Below are positions 10,634-62,168 of a DNA stretch of 64,000 nt, one piece after another. The position numbers and the translations under genes were made by a program. How positions within the stretch are numbered: position 1 is the stretch's first letter; each line of letters opens with the position of its first letter. Source of the stretch: an uncultured Bacteroidales bacterium (GTDB lineage: Bacteria; Bacteroidota; Bacteroidia; Bacteroidales; Muribaculaceae); assembly GCA_902800715.1 (NCBI GenBank), contig CADCFN010000012.1:47474-111473 (forward strand), written 5' to 3'. A model generated the notes under the pieces. The model searched no databases. It was not told the DNA's origin and saw only the letters and a program-made list of their open reading frames with translations.

Positions 10634-10764
10634 TTAAAAGTAACGCATCGAAGAACCCTTCTTCATCGCTGCCTGTTTTGGATAAACTTGGCTGCGCCTC
10701 AGCAAATCGAGCTAGCTCGTTTGCTTTCAACTTGCACAAGTTTTCCGTTTATCGTAACTACCAT
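10634..10764 (-). pseudogene. 5' remnant of phage tail gene (MVVTING), interrupted by element P1
   Basis: The reading MVVTING starts at 10764. After the palindromic element it resumes as KQAAMKKGSSMRYF before a stop. It matches the start of the gene at 59712 (MILTINGQQAALKKGSSIEYV), so both are 5' ends of one phage structural gene family. Only about 20 native codons remain. The operator hairpin and promoter upstream (10773-10805) are intact. Confidence 0.72.
10676..10744 (+). repeat. palindromic element copy P1
   Basis: About 69 bp. The outer stem is AAACTTG (10684-10690) with CAAGTTT (10737-10743). The middle stem pairs GCGCC with GGC/GC-like bases but is degenerate on the right side. The inner hairpin is GCAAA-t-CGAGC / GCTCGTTTGC (10702-10724) with a bulged T and a 2-base turn. 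It splits the MVVTING remnant, standing in place of about 4 bp of the paralogue. Confidence 0.8.
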
Positions 10765-12940: not shown

Positions 12941-13130
12941 CACTTCATTTTCTCTTAGATTTGGATATAATCCGTAGCGCCTAAGCTATTGATGTGAACT
13001 TTATTGCCTTCGGCTTGCACATTTTTTCAGTAATTCGGATAAATCGTTCACGCTCGACTATGCTCATGTGAGCACGGCATTGCCCTTGCGGGTGAAGGGA
13101 CCATTGCAACCAAGTAATTATTTTGAAAAA
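12941..13130 (-). pseudogene. decayed tape-measure gene remnant (array 1)
   Basis: On the minus strand, TTCACCCGCAAGGGC followed by a TGCCG block matches the GGFTRKGRADE region of the remnant at 61416-62122. After palindromic element P2, the last bases (ATCTAAGAGAAAATGA) match the very 3' end of that gene. The middle is deleted. This is the upstream flank of the C69 cargo gene. Confidence 0.55.
12961..13028 (+). repeat. palindromic element copy P2 (degenerate)
   Basis: Keeps the conserved blocks TTGGATA, GCGCCTAAGC (12977-12986) and GCCTTCGGCTTGCAC (13006-13020) in the right order and spacing. Inner and outer stems are largely lost. Confidence 0.6.
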
Positions 13131-14426: not shown

Positions 14427-14520
14427 TAGTTAAGTTAGGAGTTAGGAGTTTGAAGTTTGGGGTTAAACTGACAACTGACAACTGACGACTGATAACTGAA
14501 AACTGACAACTGAAAGCTAA
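14427..14520. repeat. TTAGGAG and AACTGAC heptad repeats
   Basis: Tandem imperfect copies of TTAGGAGT followed by about seven copies of AACTGAC-like units fill the gap between two co-oriented genes. No promoter is seen inside. Confidence 0.7.
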
Positions 14521-14526
14521 AAAAGG

Positions 14527-15702
14527 ATGAAAATTCACTGGTTAGGATTAATCGTCGTGGCGGTGCTCTGCATCGCCATAGACGTTTATATCTGCCGAAG
14601 GTTGCGTCGCACTGGGTACCGCTGGTCCTCATGGTTCAACGCCGTGCTGGCGATATTTACCGCTGGACTTGCTACCGGTGTAGCCGTCATGCCCCTGAGC
14701 GATGCCACAACCTCCAACAGCACTTTTGTCACGGGACAGTACATGCTCTATACCTTCTTTGCCATTCTAGCGCCCGTAATGCTGGGAACGCTGATATATG
14801 GCATCGGACGGCTCATCAAGCAACGGTGGATGACGGTGTGCGCCTTTGTTGTCGCGGCACTCGTGTTCGGCGTGATGTGGTGGGGAGCAATCGTCACGCC
14901 TGGCAAAATCGAAGTGAAAGAGGTGGAACTGGCATTTGACCGCTTGCCCGATGCCTTCGACGGCTACCGCATCGTGCAGTGGAGCGACGCCCACCTGGGC
15001 ACCTACAACGGACGCACCGCCATTGTCGAGCGACAGATACAGACCATCAACAACCTGCATCCTGACATGATTTGCTTCACGGGCGACCTTGTGAGCCGCA
15101 AGACCGATGAAGCCCTGCCCTACCGTGACCTGCTGGCTCAGTTGCATGCGCCCGACGGCGTGTTCTCGGTGCTAGGCAACCATGACTATGACAACTATGT
15201 GAATTGGAAGAATGAGAGCGACAAACTCGCTGACCGCAAGGCCCTGTGTGATCTGCAAGAAAAGGCGGGCTGGCGGTTGCTCAACGATGACTATGCCATC
15301 ATCCGCCGCGGTGACCAGCAGATAGTGCTCATCGGAACCGAGAACTTCGGCGACCATCCGTTTGAAAAGCGTGGTAACCTCGCCAAAGCCTACAGTGGGC
15401 TGAATGATGGCAACTTCAAAATCGAGCTGCAACACAATCCCTATGCATGGCGCGCCAACACACTGACCAACAGTAATATAGACCTAATGCTGGCGGGACA
15501 TACCCACGCTTGGCAAATCATGCTCACATTGGGCAACTGGCGCTGGTCGCCGGCATGCCTGCGCTACCCCGAATGGGGTGGAGCCTACAACGAGGGTAAC
15601 CGCTGGCTGTATGTCAACATCGGCACTGGCATGGTGGGTCCGCCCATGCGCATCGGTGCCACACCCGAAATCACCGTTATCACCCTTCGCAAAAAACGCT
15701 AA
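14527..15702 (+). CDS. membrane metallophosphoesterase
   Basis: A 391-aa protein with four N-terminal TM segments (residues ~4-130) and a C-terminal calcineurin-like phosphoesterase domain on the far side of the membrane. Metal-site motifs in order: WSDAHLG (~158), FTGDLVS (~186), VLGNHDYD (~217) and LAGHTHAWQ (~326), all ligands present. It resembles the YaeI/YkuE type; UDP-diacylglucosamine or other phospho-lipid hydrolysis is possible but not shown. An AGGATG context precedes the start. It is separated from tex by another short heptad repeat. Confidence 0.88.
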   Translation: MKIHWLGLIVVAVLCIAIDVYICRRLRRTGYRWSSWFNAVLAIFTAGLATGVAVMPLSDATTSNSTFVTGQYMLYTFFAILAPVMLGTLIYGIGRLIKQRWMTVCAFVVAALVFGVMWWGAIVTPGKIEVKEVELAFDRLPDAFDGYRIVQWSDAHLGTYNGRTAIVERQIQTINNLHPDMICFTGDLVSRKTDEALPYRDLLAQLHAPDGVFSVLGNHDYDNYVNWKNESDKLADRKALCDLQEKAGWRLLNDDYAIIRRGDQQIVLIGTENFGDHPFEKRGNLAKAYSGLNDGNFKIELQHNPYAWRANTLTNSNIDLMLAGHTHAWQIMLTLGNWRWSPACLRYPEWGGAYNEGNRWLYVNIGTGMVGPPMRIGATPEITVITLRKKR

Positions 15703-22646: not shown

Positions 22647-22736
22647 GGGAAATTAGGAATTAGGAGTGAGGAATTAGGAATTAAAGTTATGACTGATGCC
22701 AACAACTATTAACTTTTAACTGTTAACTATTAACTT
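22647..22736. repeat. TTAGGAATTAGGA and TTAACTATTAAC repeats
   Basis: Two different short tandem repeats back to back, between the Usp gene and the small DNA-binding protein gene. Confidence 0.6.
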
Positions 22737-22990
22737 TTAGTGCCCGCTTTCTCGAGAATCTCGAGAGCCATATCCAGAATCTGGGGGTCGTCAAGCACGA
22801 CAAGACCGCCGTCGGGGCCAGGCTCCAAATGGAAGCCCATATTGGTCCCCAACTCATAATTTGACCCGCCAAAATAGTTGCGCACCGACTGAACCGGCAG
22901 GTTGAGTTTGTCGGCGATAGCATGGATGGAGCCTTCGGGCAGACGATTTTTGATGCGTCTCAGTTCGTTGAATGTGATGGTTCTCGACAT
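22730..22990 (-). CDS. small conserved DNA-binding protein (HTH-like)
   Basis: An 86-aa protein. The N-terminal segment MSRTITFNELRRIKNRLPEG and IHAIADKLNLPVQSVRNYFGG look like a helix-turn-helix resembling a Cro/FIS fold; the acidic tail (DDPQILDMALEILEKAG) is also typical of this Bacteroidota family. Probably a nucleoid-associated or regulatory protein. ATG 22990 is chosen because it follows a perfect promoter by about 55 bp; the longer frame from 23047 would begin inside the -7 box. Confidence 0.8.
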   Translation of the reverse strand: MSRTITFNELRRIKNRLPEGSIHAIADKLNLPVQSVRNYFGGSNYELGTNMGFHLEPGPDGGLVVLDDPQILDMALEILEKAGTKS

Positions 22991-38754: not shown

Positions 38755-40215
38755 ATGAAACTGAGACACCTTATATTAAGTATTGTAGCGGTGGCAGCCG
38801 TATTACCGGCTACTGCCGATGTGCATCCGCGCTACACCGCGGTAGTGAGTGACGCAACCTCGACCTATGTCACCAAACGCCCGCCCGCCGAGGAACGGCT
38901 GTTCACCAGTGTGATTATCGAGAAACGCATCAAAGAAGTGCTGAAGAAAATCAAGGGCAATCCACGGTTGGCGTGGATGTTTGAGAACTGTTTCCCAAAC
39001 ACGCTCGACAGCACGGTGCATTATCGCCTGACCGACGACGGCGATGACGACACATTTGTATATACGGGTGACATCCACGCGATGTGGTTGCGCGACAGCG
39101 GTGCCCAAGTGTGGCCCTACGTCAAGTATGCCAACAAGGACGAGAAACTGCGCCACATGCTGCGCGGCGTTATCCTGCGCCAACTCAAGTGCATCGTTCT
39201 GGACCCCTATGCCAACGCCTTCAACGACGGCCCGACAGGCAGCCAGTGGCAGGAAGACCTGACCGACATGAAGCCTGAACTGCATGAGCGCAAGTACGAG
39301 ATTGACTCGCTGTGTTACCCCATCCGCTTGGCCTACGAGTACTGGTTGGTAACGGGCGACGACAGCATCTTCGGCGACCTGTGGGTTGAAGCGATGCAGG
39401 CTGTGTTGCGCACCTTCAAGGAGCAGCAGCGCAAGAACGGCGACAAGGGACCCTACAAGTTCATGCGTCGCGACATCGATGCCAAATCGTCACTCACATG
39501 GTATGGCTGGGGACCTCCCGTCAACCCCGTCGGACTGATTGTGTCGTGTTTCCGTCCCAGCGACGACGCCACGGTGCTGCCCTTCTTGGTGCCCAGCAAC
39601 TTCATGGCTGTCAACTCGCTGCGCAAGGCGGCTGAAATTCTTCAAAAAGTGAACAATGACTACCTGCTGGCTGACCAGTGCCGCACCCTTGCCCAGGAGG
39701 TGGAGGATGCCCTGCACAAGTACGCCATCGTGGACCATCCCAAATACGGCAAAATCTACGCCTACGAGGTGGACGGCTGGGGCGGACGAGTCCTCGCCGA
39801 CGATGCCAATGTGCCTAGCCTGCTGGCAATGGGCTATCTGGGCGATGTGCCGATGGATGACCCCATCTACCTCAACACGCGCCGCTTTGTCTGGAGCGAG
39901 GATAATCCTTGCTTCTTCAAGGGCACGGCATGCGAGGGAATCGGCGGGGCTCACACGGCCTATAACCTCATCTGGCCCATGAGCATCATGATGAAGGCCT
40001 TTACCGCCCAAGATGATGCCGAAATCACCTGGTGCATGCGACAACTGCTCACCACCGATGCTGGCACTGGCTTCATGCATGAGTCGTTCCACAAGGACAA
40101 TCCCCAGAATTATACCCGCGCCTGGTTCGCCTGGCAGAATACCCTCTTCGGCGAGCTGGTCATCCACCTCATCGAGAACGGCAAGACCGACCTGCTCATC
40201 CACTGCCTTGACTAG
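38755..40215 (+). CDS. GH125 exo-alpha-1,6-mannosidase
   Basis: A 486-aa exported enzyme (signal [21 protein letters not shown]) of glycoside hydrolase family 125, metal-independent inverting alpha-mannosidases acting on N-glycan alpha-1,6-mannose. Family blocks: [17 protein letters not shown] (~101, catalytic Asp region), [18 protein letters not shown], the [12 protein letters not shown] segment and [19 protein letters not shown] near the second acid. Length is normal for the family. It is the only gene of its transcription unit; next to the sialidase and GH2 it fits host glycan foraging. Confidence 0.93.
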
Positions 40216-40312
40216 TTAGGAATTAGGAATTAGGAGTTAGGAATTAGGAGTTAGGAATTAGGAGTTAGGAATTGGCGGTTACCCTCTAAACACTAAACTC
40301 TAAACTCTAAAC
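40216..40312. repeat. long run of TTAGGAATTAGGAG and CTAAACT repeats
   Basis: The longest heptad array in the window: about ten TTAGGAR-type units followed by CTAAACT units. It lies between the GH125 stop and a terminator hairpin. Confidence 0.75.
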
Positions 40313-42307: not shown

Positions 42308-42331
42308 AATGCGTGCATTTTACATGTATAA
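42296..42331. terminator. 17-bp perfect inverted repeat over the DUF4954 stop codon
   Basis: Arms TTATACATGTAAAATGC and GCATTTTACATGTATAA with a 2-base spacer; the TAA stop (42305-42307) is part of the left arm. Confidence 0.8.
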
Positions 42332-42367
42332 GTTTAGAGTTTAGAGTTTAGAGTTTAGAGAATTAGT

Positions 42368-58076: not shown

Positions 58077-58135
58077 TTTTAATTAGAAAACAAGAAATAC
58101 AACAAACTCAAACCATGCGGCTTGCAACAATGAAT

Positions 58136-58200
58136 AAAGACAACTCGGACAACGATCACAACAGCAGGTTATTGTTGTAAAAGTTGTCCGAGTTGTCTTT
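58136..58200. terminator. 18-bp perfect stem AAAGACAACTCGGACAAC
   Basis: The right arm at 58183-58200 is the exact reverse complement; the 29-nt loop holds a second stem ACAACA/TGTTGT. It lies between pepD and the convergent Xre gene. Flanking A and T runs (TTTAATTTT on the right) allow termination in both directions. Confidence 0.75.
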
Positions 58201-58250
58201 AATTTTCAAGGGCGCAGATGCCTTCAGATAATTCAGACCATTCAGTTGTT

Positions 58251-59032: not shown

Positions 59033-59328
59033 ATATTTAAGAAATTTTAATTGTTTCACAAAACAGCCCATAGCCAATTCCTTCCTTTTGCACAGTCCAA
59101 TATTGAGGTGGAATGCATTCTTAGGGTTTCGTTACCTAATCTAAACTACTAATATGGTCTGCAACCCACGGCAAGGCGGTGTAGTCCTCCGTCCGTGCCC
59201 ACAGTTCAGCTGGTGAGGCGTAGGACACTTCTTCCCCGGGTCTAGGTTGGGCCCCGCCGCCGGTCGGCGAATTGTCGGGATAGATGCTGGGCCATTTGCC
59301 CAGGTCGAGCTCGTCGATGTAGGTCTGC

Positions 59329-59393
59329 ATAAAGTTGACTGCGCCTTAACAATGCTCAAGTAAACTTGGCATTGTCTTCTGCTTGCACAAATA
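59329..59393 (+). repeat. palindromic element copy D
   Basis: Conserved GCGCCTTAAC and CTGCTTGCAC flank an inner hairpin AATGC-t-CAAGT / ACTTGGCATT (59351-59373) with the same bulged T as the other copies but different stem sequence. The outer stem is weak. Confidence 0.72.
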
Positions 59394-59493
59394 TTCATCG
59401 AAGCGTGGGAAGAAGTTCTGGTAACTGCGCTTCTCCAGGAACTGCACCTTGACTGATTCCTGCGTGATGCCGGTGATCACGACGGCACCTCGG

Positions 59494-59564
59494 TTAGATA
59501 AAATAGGCTACGCCTTAACAGAGTTCAAGCAAGCTTGACTCTGCATTCGGCTTGCTCTATTTTT
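59494..59564 (+). repeat. palindromic element copy C
   Basis: Outer stem AAAATAG (59500-59506) / CTATTTT (59557-59563); inner hairpin AGAGT-t-CAAGC / GCTTGACTCT (59520-59542) with bulged T; GCATTCGGCTTGC conserved. Stem sequences differ from P1 and B while pairing is kept. Confidence 0.82.
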
Positions 59565-60304: not shown

Positions 60305-60474
60305 TCACTTTCTCTTATTTTTCGGTGATTTATTGTTCATGAGGCGCTGGTACTCGTCCTGCGCCTGCTTGATGCCCTTGTCGCCAGTCACGGTGTTGAC
60401 GGTGACAAAGGGCTCGTCCAATCGCTCGTTGAGACGGGCGATGATCTCCTTCAAGTCTTTACTCTCCTGGACAA
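60305..60474 (-). pseudogene. duplicated 3' tail of tape-measure gene (array 2)
   Basis: 170 bp nearly identical to the end of the gene at 61416-62122. It starts right after the stop codon of the outer-membrane protein gene, with VQESKDLKEIIARLNERLDE, and runs uninterrupted through GDKGIKQAQDEYQRLMNNKS to a TGA. It provides the empty-site reference for element B. Confidence 0.8.
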
Positions 60475-61191
60475 TCAATGTTTGGTAAGGTTAATGCTCA
60501 TGCGCACCACGAATGAGAGTTGGTGGTCAAAGTGGCCGTTGGAAGTGGATACAGTAGGAGCTGAAGTATTATCATCGTAATTGAAATTTGAACCCACAAC
60601 GATGCGTGGTGAATACTCGATTCCCAAATAGGTGGTACTAGTGGCTCGCCAACCTGCCGTCATAAGGGGGCCTAATGCATAGTGAATAGAACGGAAATCT
60701 TGTGTGCCGTATTTTGGTGAGCTGTCGCCGTCTTCTACGTCAAAGCTAACTCTTCTCCGCTCAAACGATGGACCCACTCCCAGCACCCATCGCTTGGCAT
60801 ACCACATGTGTACCAGCGATATAGTTGAATTCAAGACTATACGCGTTGGCGGGTATGGAGGGAAAGTTTCAGCAATAGAGAACTGATTATTGCCAATTAT
60901 TCCCACATGTGCCATCAATCGCAGTGTGCGATTGTCACGATAAGCCATCTCAACTCCAGTGCCAATGTTCAAAATACCAAATGACGATACGTCGGTTGTC
61001 TTAATGTTGGGTAAATAGGACCAGGCAATGTCATAGGCATTCAAATTGATTAGAGCTCTCCATTGACCTTGAGAAAATGTCCATCGGGTGCTGTCGGTTT
61101 GTGCCACAACTGGCAAGAAAACCGATAAACATATTATAAGCAACGATATTATTCTCCACTTGAAGAAAGCAATACCAATAGTTGTTTTCAT
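60475..61191 (-). CDS. outer-membrane protein, cargo 1 of array 2
   Basis: A 238-aa protein with signal peptide (IISLLIICLSVFLPVVAQ) and alternating strand pattern (IGTGVEMAYRDNRTLRLMAH; YLGIEYSPRIVVGSNFNYDD), ending in MSINLTKH; an outer-membrane beta-barrel of unknown function. It has its own promoter (CTTG-N20-TAACTTTG, 61232-61263) and is flanked on both sides by tape-measure gene sequence: the long 5'-truncated copy upstream and the 3' tail immediately after its stop codon. This position equals that of the C69 dipeptidase in array 1. Confidence 0.78.
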   Translation of the reverse strand: MKTTIGIAFFKWRIISLLIICLSVFLPVVAQTDSTRWTFSQGQWRALINLNAYDIAWSYLPNIKTTDVSSFGILNIGTGVEMAYRDNRTLRLMAHVGIIGNNQFSIAETFPPYPPTRIVLNSTISLVHMWYAKRWVLGVGPSFERRRVSFDVEDGDSSPKYGTQDFRSIHYALGPLMTAGWRATSTTYLGIEYSPRIVVGSNFNYDDNTSAPTVSTSNGHFDHQLSFVVRMSINLTKH

Positions 61192-61263: not shown

Positions 61264-61478
61264 AAATTCGGTAGTTATTTGAGTTCATTTTGCATTTTGT
61301 AAATAACTGAAATTCAAACATATAAAAAACAAAATATTCATTATGGGGAAAATGCAGTTAATTCGGCATTGTTTTGAGCCCAAAAAGCCGATAAAAATAC
61401 CATGATTGCATTCTTCTATTTTCTTTTAGATTTCGGTGATTTATTGTTCATAAGGCGCTGGTACTCGTCCTGCGCCTG

Positions 61479-61547
61479 GTTGGATAAACTTGGCGGCGCC
61501 TCAGCAAATCGAGCGAGCTCGTTTGCATTCGGCTTGCACAAGTTTTT
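61479..61547 (+). repeat. palindromic element copy B with known empty site
   Basis: 69 bp lies where the copy at 60305-60474 has only 4 bp (60368-60371). Outer stem AAACTTG (61486-61492) / CAAGTTT (61539-61545); inner hairpin GCAAA-t-CGAGC / GCTCGTTTGC (61504-61526). Confidence 0.9.
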
Positions 61548-61701
61548 ATGCCCTTGTCGCCGGTCACAGTGTTGACGGTGACGAAGGGCTCGTCCAATCG
61601 CTCGTTGAGACGGGCGATGATCTCTTTCAAGTCTTTACTCTCCTGGACTATCACCTGCGGTTGGCTTTGCGCCAAAGCCATCGGCGCGGTGATTGACCTT
61701 G

Positions 61702-61768
61702 AAAATTGGTGCAAGGCGAGCGCAGAGGCAAACTCGCTTGCACTTTGCCGAGCCGCAGCCCAATTTAT
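61702..61768 (-). repeat. palindromic element copy E, inverted
   Basis: The only copy on the opposite strand. Outer stem AAATTGG/CCAATTT; the middle stem changes from GCGCC..GGCttGC to GCGGC..GCCttGC, a compensated change; inner stem GGCAAA/TTTGCC. The tape-measure frame stays open through it. Confidence 0.7.
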
Positions 61769-62168
61769 GCACACGTCGGCACTGCGAAGCGAGCCGATCG
61801 TGTTGGTGCGCTGCGCGTAGTCCAGAGCCTCGATCAGAGGACGGGCAACGGGTGAAGCGACCAGCCGCTGGCTCGCCACCCATTCCCCGGCATGGACCAC
61901 GCCAGCCACCTCGTCGGCACGGCCCTTGCGGGTGAAACCGCCCTCGCCGTAGCCCTGCGCCTGGCTCGCCTGCTGCTGTTTTTTGATGGCGGCCACCTGC
62001 ATGGCACCTGCAGCCACTGCCATGGCAGCGGCTATAGGGGCGATGATGTAGCCCACGACAGGGATGGCGGCGGCACTGGAGTAGGCGTTCAGGGCAGCGG
62101 TCGCCGTCTGGGCCAGGGCATGTAAAGTATTTTTTCAAGTTTATATACCTTATTAAAAAAATAATGCG

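Follow-up and report, generated by a model that had tools for sequence, protein, structure and literature searches.

A family of short hairpin repeats in the order Bacteroidales is interpreted here, with somewhat better than even confidence, as a non-autonomous mobile DNA element that is recognised by its fold, is probably moved as a single strand and can often be used as a promoter. The family was studied from the window, a stretch of 64,000 nucleotides from an uncultured Muribaculaceae bacterium. The units are non-coding, measure 65 to about 90 bp, form a nested hairpin and can lie in head-to-tail arrays. In alignments the typical unit reads RN-ATAA-N4-GGC(N)GC(R)CCTYR, hairpin, TTCGGYTTGCAC-N4-TTT(T), and many intergenic copies have other left ends (e.g., GCGAA). 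The outer stem is formed by the two N4 segments and the flanking A/T bases, and encloses a GC/GC stem with a one-base bulge followed by a 3-bp middle stem (GCC/GGC). The bases between the stems are conserved and unpaired, and in the first ten copies the loop bases TTC and TT do not vary. The inner hairpin of the window copies consists of 5-6 bp, an unpaired T, a further 5-6 bp and a loop; elsewhere it can be longer or lack the bulge.

A covariance model built from five clean copies (R1) gave 55 matches at E<0.1 across the source genome, six of them in the window. These copies and two associated features are as follows:

10680 to 10744, plus strand: element P1, 65 bp, R1 score 93.0 bits.
12963 to 13026, plus strand: degenerate sixth copy, R1 score 44.8 bits, ends and loop motifs kept, stems decayed.
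59327 to 59395, plus strand: element D, 69 bp, R1 score 44.0 bits, outer stem decayed, inner stem and its bulged T preserved.
59496 to 59564, plus strand: element C, 69 bp, R1 score 59.1 bits, outer stem AAATAG/CTATTT, inner stem with bulged T.
60309 to 60477, no strand: second copy of the surroundings of B that lacks the element (direct repeats D1 and D2), with the empty site near 60368-60372.
61448 to 62056, minus strand: tape-measure-like frame holding B and E, residues 2-64 similar to the tail length tape measure protein phrog_1506 (E 1.6e-9).
61482 to 61546, plus strand: element B, 65 bp, R1 score 97.8 bits.
61702 to 61770, minus strand: element E, 69 bp, R1 score 50.4 bits, middle stem reversed (GGC/GCC).

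Elements C and D are 100 bp apart and both lie within one short minus-strand frame, another copy of which forms the site of P1; a second occurrence of C was found at G000:C25. The short frame cut by C gave no PHROG match better than E 0.23 over the 51 residues searched, so that its label as prophage-like or prophage-derived rests on its neighbourhood. Element B causes a frameshift close to the C-terminal end in the tape-measure-like gene, as seen against an uninterrupted 168-aa frame in a related locus (L274), and E is read through in frame, adding 23 codons and no stop. Positions 61460-61570 of the window had no match in phage or plasmid collections. Viral contigs were taken up as a lead in the form of 10 stretches and set aside.

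Mobility is indicated by empty sites. An uninterrupted duplicate of the DNA around B is present within the window, 1.1 kb away, and the region was compared with 101 genomes of the genus (its own included). The empty site of D (GGTCT^CATCG) was found in five of 20 fetched same-genus stretches, that of C (CGCTT^GAAG) in six of 20, and that of E (GTGT^) in three of 20 and in more stretches of a further comparison. The empty site of B in same-genus stretches is CTGCTT^TATG, and that of P1 is TGTTTT^CCG or TGCTTT^CCG. Four further sites came from the source genome and relatives, among them the site of the decayed copy 12963-13026 (approximately GATTT^CGGTG), one site of a sister family and one that was approximately matched. 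The pairs of empty and filled sites for the five better-preserved window copies show that the element is mobile. Insertions in the window measure 65 or 69 bp and lie 3' of a T, with no target duplication apart from a possible single T. None was seen at any of the nine compared sites (one approximate, one from the sister family), a one-base duplication of T being indistinguishable from none. In 38 single copies with defined ends, T occupies position -1 in 38, -2 in 33 and -3 in 26, against a background T frequency of 0.26, although these rows are not all independent and some share one site. Copies with defined boundaries carry the 5' foot RNATAA. The base before TT was G in all six filled rows of C and in seven of nine filled rows of B (overlapping loci counted), and C or T in the empty rows.

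Elements with the same fold were first proposed from the base pairing of the window copies. The original prediction placed them at 59329-59564, an interval that does hold C and D, whereas P1, B and E lie elsewhere. Its reading of the individual stems was correct in most respects. The inner stems GCAAA-t-CGAGC (P1 and B), AGAGT-t-CAAGC (C) and AATGC-t-CAAGT (D) have complementary right arms and an unpaired T, complements are present for the outer stems AAACTTG (P1/B), AAAATAG (C) and AAATTGG (E), and the middle stem is reversed in E as described. An unpaired T can be drawn in the matching place of E on the minus strand, with one A.C and one G.T pair. Conservation of the stems was overstated, however, as the outer stem of D (AAAGTTG versus CAAATAT) and the middle stem of P1 (GCC versus AAC) are broken and the sixth copy has lost the fold altogether. 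In DNA folding against shuffled sequences the z-scores were -1.35 to -2.24 for five copies and 0.09 for the copy at 12963-13026, and the lowest-energy DNA fold of E differs from the nested fold. Single copies thus fold only moderately better than shuffles, and the case for the fold rests on covariation.

Covariation was examined in an anchored set of 79 copies from 76 fetched stretches, located with a search pattern that places no constraint on the outer stem or the inner hairpin. The set comprises 79 of the 84 matches listed for 80 of the 118 fetched stretches, the other five having flanks shorter than 40 bases. The middle stem and the GC pairs are part of the pattern itself, so this model-free result bears on the outer stem and not on those pairs. 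Standard pairs, with G.T allowed, were found at outer positions -1 to -6 in 77, 69, 79, 65, 75 and 77 of the 79 copies, respectively. Pair -3 is Watson-Crick in every copy and occurs in all four types (AT 43, TA 18, GC 13, CG 5), which bears out the earlier claim that pairing is kept while sequence is not. The copies have 37 distinct six-base right arms, and 44 of them have perfect six-base outer stems of 19 kinds. The covariation persists when each locus contributes a single copy, and when right arms resembling a promoter are left out. Stem pairing exceeds chance.

In a 100-row model alignment, which leans towards the model, 95.1% of the structure cells are paired versus 72.9% after shuffling. 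Cells changed on both sides number 448 versus 118.5 in shuffles and at most 65 in slid registers of this model-fitted alignment, and two-sided changes occur in 20 of the 21 structure pairs. A home-made tree-based null with 60 replicates, similar to R-scape but not R-scape itself, served for the covariation test suggested with the original prediction and was applied to 2016 column pairs. Nine pairs reached E<0.05, and all nine lie inside the proposed stems; the top 14 scores are likewise all within the structure. The remaining 12 structure pairs fall below significance; several of them scarcely vary, and the columns of one (45-86) are too close in the loop for testing. The anchored set and the home-made null agree that the fold is what is kept. 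The accompanying claim that the elements keep a bulged T holds for a common form and not for all copies. In the 79 copies, which come from other genomes, a simple stem finder with mismatches forbidden found a single left bulge in 36 (T in 32), no bulge in 34 and a right bulge in nine.

Many intergenic copies are predicted to carry a promoter. In sigma-ABfr promoters the spacing between TTTG and TAnnTTTG is 19-21 bp. PMC4747536 gives TAnnTTTG as the Bacteroides -7 consensus, and PMC7366714 describes the sigma-ABfr promoter as TAnnTTTG with TTTG near -33, the latter motif not being found in Flavobacterium johnsoniae. The right outer arm of the element reads TAnnTTTG in 34 of the 79 copies. A TTTG 19-21 nt upstream, inside the element, is present in 26 of these 34 and in nine of the 45 others (p 8e-7), and neighbouring spacings show almost no TTTG signal. 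In many intergenic copies, TAnnTTTG in the right arm of the outer stem and TTTG in that of the inner stem would together make a sigma-ABfr-type promoter. The right-hand neighbour gene is co-oriented with the element in 45 cases and opposed in 17 in the named set, and in 25 and 16 cases, respectively, in the source genome, by crude frame calls. In promoter-type copies the two free bases of TAnnTTT follow the left arm, pair -3 being matched in 35 of 35 copies (14.1 in shuffles) and pair -4 in 30 of 35 (20.4 in shuffles). The -7 box is thus under both constraints at once, that of the promoter and that of the fold.

Promoter boxes also appear at insertion sites. In one genome (G466) all seven inspected places lie directly 3' of a TATCTTTGC box. 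Only one locus, upstream of a gene read from its translation as leuS-like, had usable orthologues. The upstream regions of the leuS-like gene in relatives contain a native TAnnTTTG box in 13 of 14 cases (11 found by script, two by eye), and no base-exact empty site was found in them. These flanks and native boxes suggest insertion at TTT^G.

The distribution of the element was estimated with two models. R1 with strict filters matched 22 of 25 genomes of the genus (the source genome included) and none of 16 others of the order. R2, a broader model for which at most 12 candidates were scored per genome, matched at least 67 of 393 sampled genomes of the order Bacteroidales, representing at least 38 of 205 genera, and also matched G032, one of the 16 genomes negative with R1. 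Among the matches listed for the exact pattern (80 of 118 stretches named), the named records include Prevotella, Leyella, Hoylesella, Prevotellamassilia and Muribaculaceae, and also Marinifilaceae, Tannerella, Parabacteroides and Alistipes. One record among the matches listed is labelled uncultured proteobacterium; element records have so far been labelled almost only as Bacteroidales or Bacteroidetes. No description of the element was found in open-licence PMC papers.

Several other repeats were noted. A sister hairpin family with similar ends (GGATAAA...TTTT) is present at 13037 to about 13097 of the window, at L015:681, L052:378 and L285:665, and in L378. It has differing loop motifs (CACGCTCGAC...CTCACTTAATC) and inserts without target duplication at GATTT^ATTG (L015 and L285); the L378 copy lies upstream of the leuS-like gene with TATCTTTGC as its outer arm. 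At about 2633-2710 of L193, the left halves of an E-type and a B-type element, the latter inverted, form one chimeric palindrome; a deletion from the tip of one element to the tip of another in inverted orientation would leave such a structure. A MITE-like repeat of about 215 bp in G310 (L346-L351), with the ends GTGTCTRTCCATAAAGTC and GACTTTATAGAYGGACTCT, contains one copy of the element, and the two have multiplied together. This repeat was considered as a larger parent and rejected as an unrelated MITE-like vehicle with other ends, found in G310 only. A larger parent with split ends was also rejected, as lone halves in 1.44 Mb of fetched DNA look like chance or decayed copies (70 of 127 left and 27 of 27 right halves inspected). 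Short arrays of 7- and 14-bp units (types CTCTAAA, AACTGAC and AGTTAGG) occur in both orientations at 14451-14543, 22704-22739, 40207-40281 and 42317-42360 of the window, among others. A 29-nt inverted repeat at 58135-58201, 90% complementary with 9 nt between its arms, is unrelated to the element.

A search for the enzyme that mobilises the element covered Y1 transposases, GIY-YIG nucleases and recurrent neighbours. The source genome has two Y1 hits, one of which is a RAYT-like 338-aa protein (NF047646 at 47.4 bits, against a cut-off of 80). It is encoded at L011:1935-2951 (G000:C5), its only Pfam match ends at residue 179, and it has its own REPIN-like inverted repeats on both sides (CCGTGGCAGGAGCCACGG). 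Loci L104, L105 and L112 hold another Y1 class (frames of about 270-320 aa), with nearby inverted repeats containing GGGACGGTTCT or similar. When 52 Y1 loci (the two of the source genome and 50 among those listed) were scanned with R1, no adjacent element was found, and the only clear hits nearby were a truncated copy about 1.4 kb off (L085) and another about 6.6 kb off (L122). Of the five RAYT-like loci inspected, L108 shows no inverted repeats and the other four have repeats of their own that differ from the element. PF01797 at E<=0.01 is absent from 14 of 26 element-bearing genomes, where draft gaps or loss after amplification are possible; G374, a single contig, has 40 element hits and no such match. 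A Y1 transposase was rejected as the mobiliser in view of the 52 loci and the many carriers without Y1 hits. A small GIY-YIG nuclease of the kind in Ssn-type repeat systems was also set aside. In 12 of the 18 carriers searched, PF01541 matched nothing but a UvrC-sized frame (600-680 aa); another five carriers have additional matches, and G009 has one weak match. Among 371 frames near elements, four groups were common to at least three loci (9, 5, 3 and 3), and the examples inspected do not look like transposases by eye; none of the neighbours recurs in the manner expected of a mobiliser. No replication-strand bias was detected by GC skew in 77 of 79 named copies (p 0.78) or in 36 of 56 copies of the source genome (p 0.29), nor in the single-contig G374 (18 of 32).

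One alternative to recognition of the fold is that the covariation is unselected and results from replication template switching, in which one arm of an imperfect palindrome is copied onto the other. The very few G.T intermediates and the many arm words fit this process, which could in principle maintain the outer-stem covariation. Template switching should nevertheless erase conserved unpaired loops and a one-sided T bulge, whereas loop bases are invariant in the first ten copies, and it leaves insertion unexplained; it is judged unlikely. The conserved unpaired loops favour recognition by an enzyme. The original statement that the folded form is selected or recognised is upheld for the keeping of the fold; recognition by an enzyme still competes with template switching. 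Covarying stems and conserved loops are also typical of structured RNAs, and the frequent co-orientation with a downstream gene would suit a cis-regulatory leader, a terminator, a small RNA or an RNA-borne mobile element. A search of the whole window with Rfam 15 returned only tRNA at gathering score, however, and near the element one chance-level match up to E 5. Among 2031 cells, which are not independent, A.C pairs (51) outnumber G.T pairs (20), unexpectedly for RNA selection on the element strand; the hairpin of promoter-type copies would lie upstream of the start site, and both orientations occur inside prophage-like frames. An RNA is considered rather improbable. The earlier choice between single-stranded DNA and RNA can be narrowed towards DNA, as we infer from the deficit of G.T relative to A.C, the position of the hairpin upstream of the start in promoter-type copies and insertion as DNA units.

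Among DNA elements, a REP/BIME-type hairpin or one derived from IS200/IS605, mobilised by a Y1 (HUH) transposase that reads the hairpin and its unpaired T, would account for the bulged T, the lack of target duplication and insertion 3' of a short fixed target, and the source genome does encode two Y1 proteins. The Y1 loci lack adjacent elements, though, RAYT-like loci mostly have their own repeats, 14 of 26 carriers lack a PF01797 match and no strand bias is seen, which together make this origin improbable. An ordinary DDE-transposase MITE, bounded by terminal inverted repeats, would likewise be small, non-coding, palindromic and present in many copies, and the G310 copies ride in a MITE-like repeat. 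Against this, the termini are not conserved in sequence, as the 19 kinds of perfect outer stem indicate, the outer stems covary, target duplications of 2-9 bp are absent, and the G310 repeat has other ends and was seen there only. A MITE of this kind is thus very unlikely, and by terminal repeats or target duplications the element is not a MITE; nor does it match any Rfam family.

The preferred reading remains a fold-recognised mobile DNA hairpin. A trans-acting enzyme would recognise the folded single strand through the conserved loops and any complementary arms, would cut on the 5' side of RNATAA and on the 3' side of the T run that ends the unit, and would join the cut strand to single-stranded target DNA, 3' of a T. 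The single-strand step is deduced from insertion without target duplication, the conserved unpaired loops and conservation of the fold. Promoter-type copies would then act as a mobile promoter, judging from their sequence motifs. Three findings count against this reading: no mobiliser was found in the searches above, there is no replication bias of the kind that lagging-strand transposition of single-stranded DNA would leave, and more than half of the copies have no bulged T. A stronger version, considered unlikely, is a new class of mobile DNA. In it, a single-stranded hairpin would owe its mobility to fold and loop motifs instead of terminal sequence, would be moved by an enzyme outside the known mobile-element families, would target melted promoter DNA (TTT^G of -7 boxes) and would give the target genes a replacement promoter from its stem arms. 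The flanks behind the idea of melted-promoter targeting are those of the seven G466 places and three in G295. There is a real chance that the mechanism is new.

If active, the promoter-type copies would allow gut Bacteroidales to gain promoters or to exchange existing ones. The search for the mobiliser has a clear goal and is narrowed by the carrier genomes without Y1 hits. With clean empty sites and dozens of compensatory variants that arose naturally, the family allows a direct test of which parts of a hairpin a recombinase reads.

Four known systems are closest to the element. Integron attC sites are recombined as folded single strands with extrahelical bases, with exchange at G^TTRRRY. Unlike them, the element has no attC boxes, and the site of D (GGTCT^CATCG) does not fit a G^TT exchange. 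The ends of IS200/IS605 elements are recognised hairpins with a mid-stem unpaired T, insertion occurs without target duplication 3' of a fixed short target, and transposition of this type shows an orientation bias with replication. The element similarly inserts without target duplication 3' of a T (T at -1 in all 38 copies), but a single hairpin spans the whole element, and it has no transposase and no replication-strand bias. The Porphyromonas MITEs (BrickBuilt, MITE239 and MITE464) are also small non-coding repeats of the same order, but according to PMC4596501, which contains the words “mobile promoter” once, they differ from the element in having IS5-like terminal repeats and, in some BrickBuilt copies, target duplications. 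REP elements and REPINs with their RAYTs are, according to PMC6006769, short hairpins in many copies with bulges in some stems and a fold thought to be recognised, as in the element, and REP elements have a GT[AG]G foot 5' of the hairpin that is absent in RAYT subclass 2.6. The element differs in its longer nested fold, its conserved internal loops and the lack of a GT[AG]G foot, a lack that alone does not exclude subclass 2.6, and also in having no copies flanking a Y1 gene (REPtron) at the 52 loci and many carriers without Y1 hits. The element resembles a REP or IS200/IS605 hairpin in its working but lacks several of the membership features tested for them. Short mobile hairpin repeats are already known as a kind, and the element is rated a variant of them.
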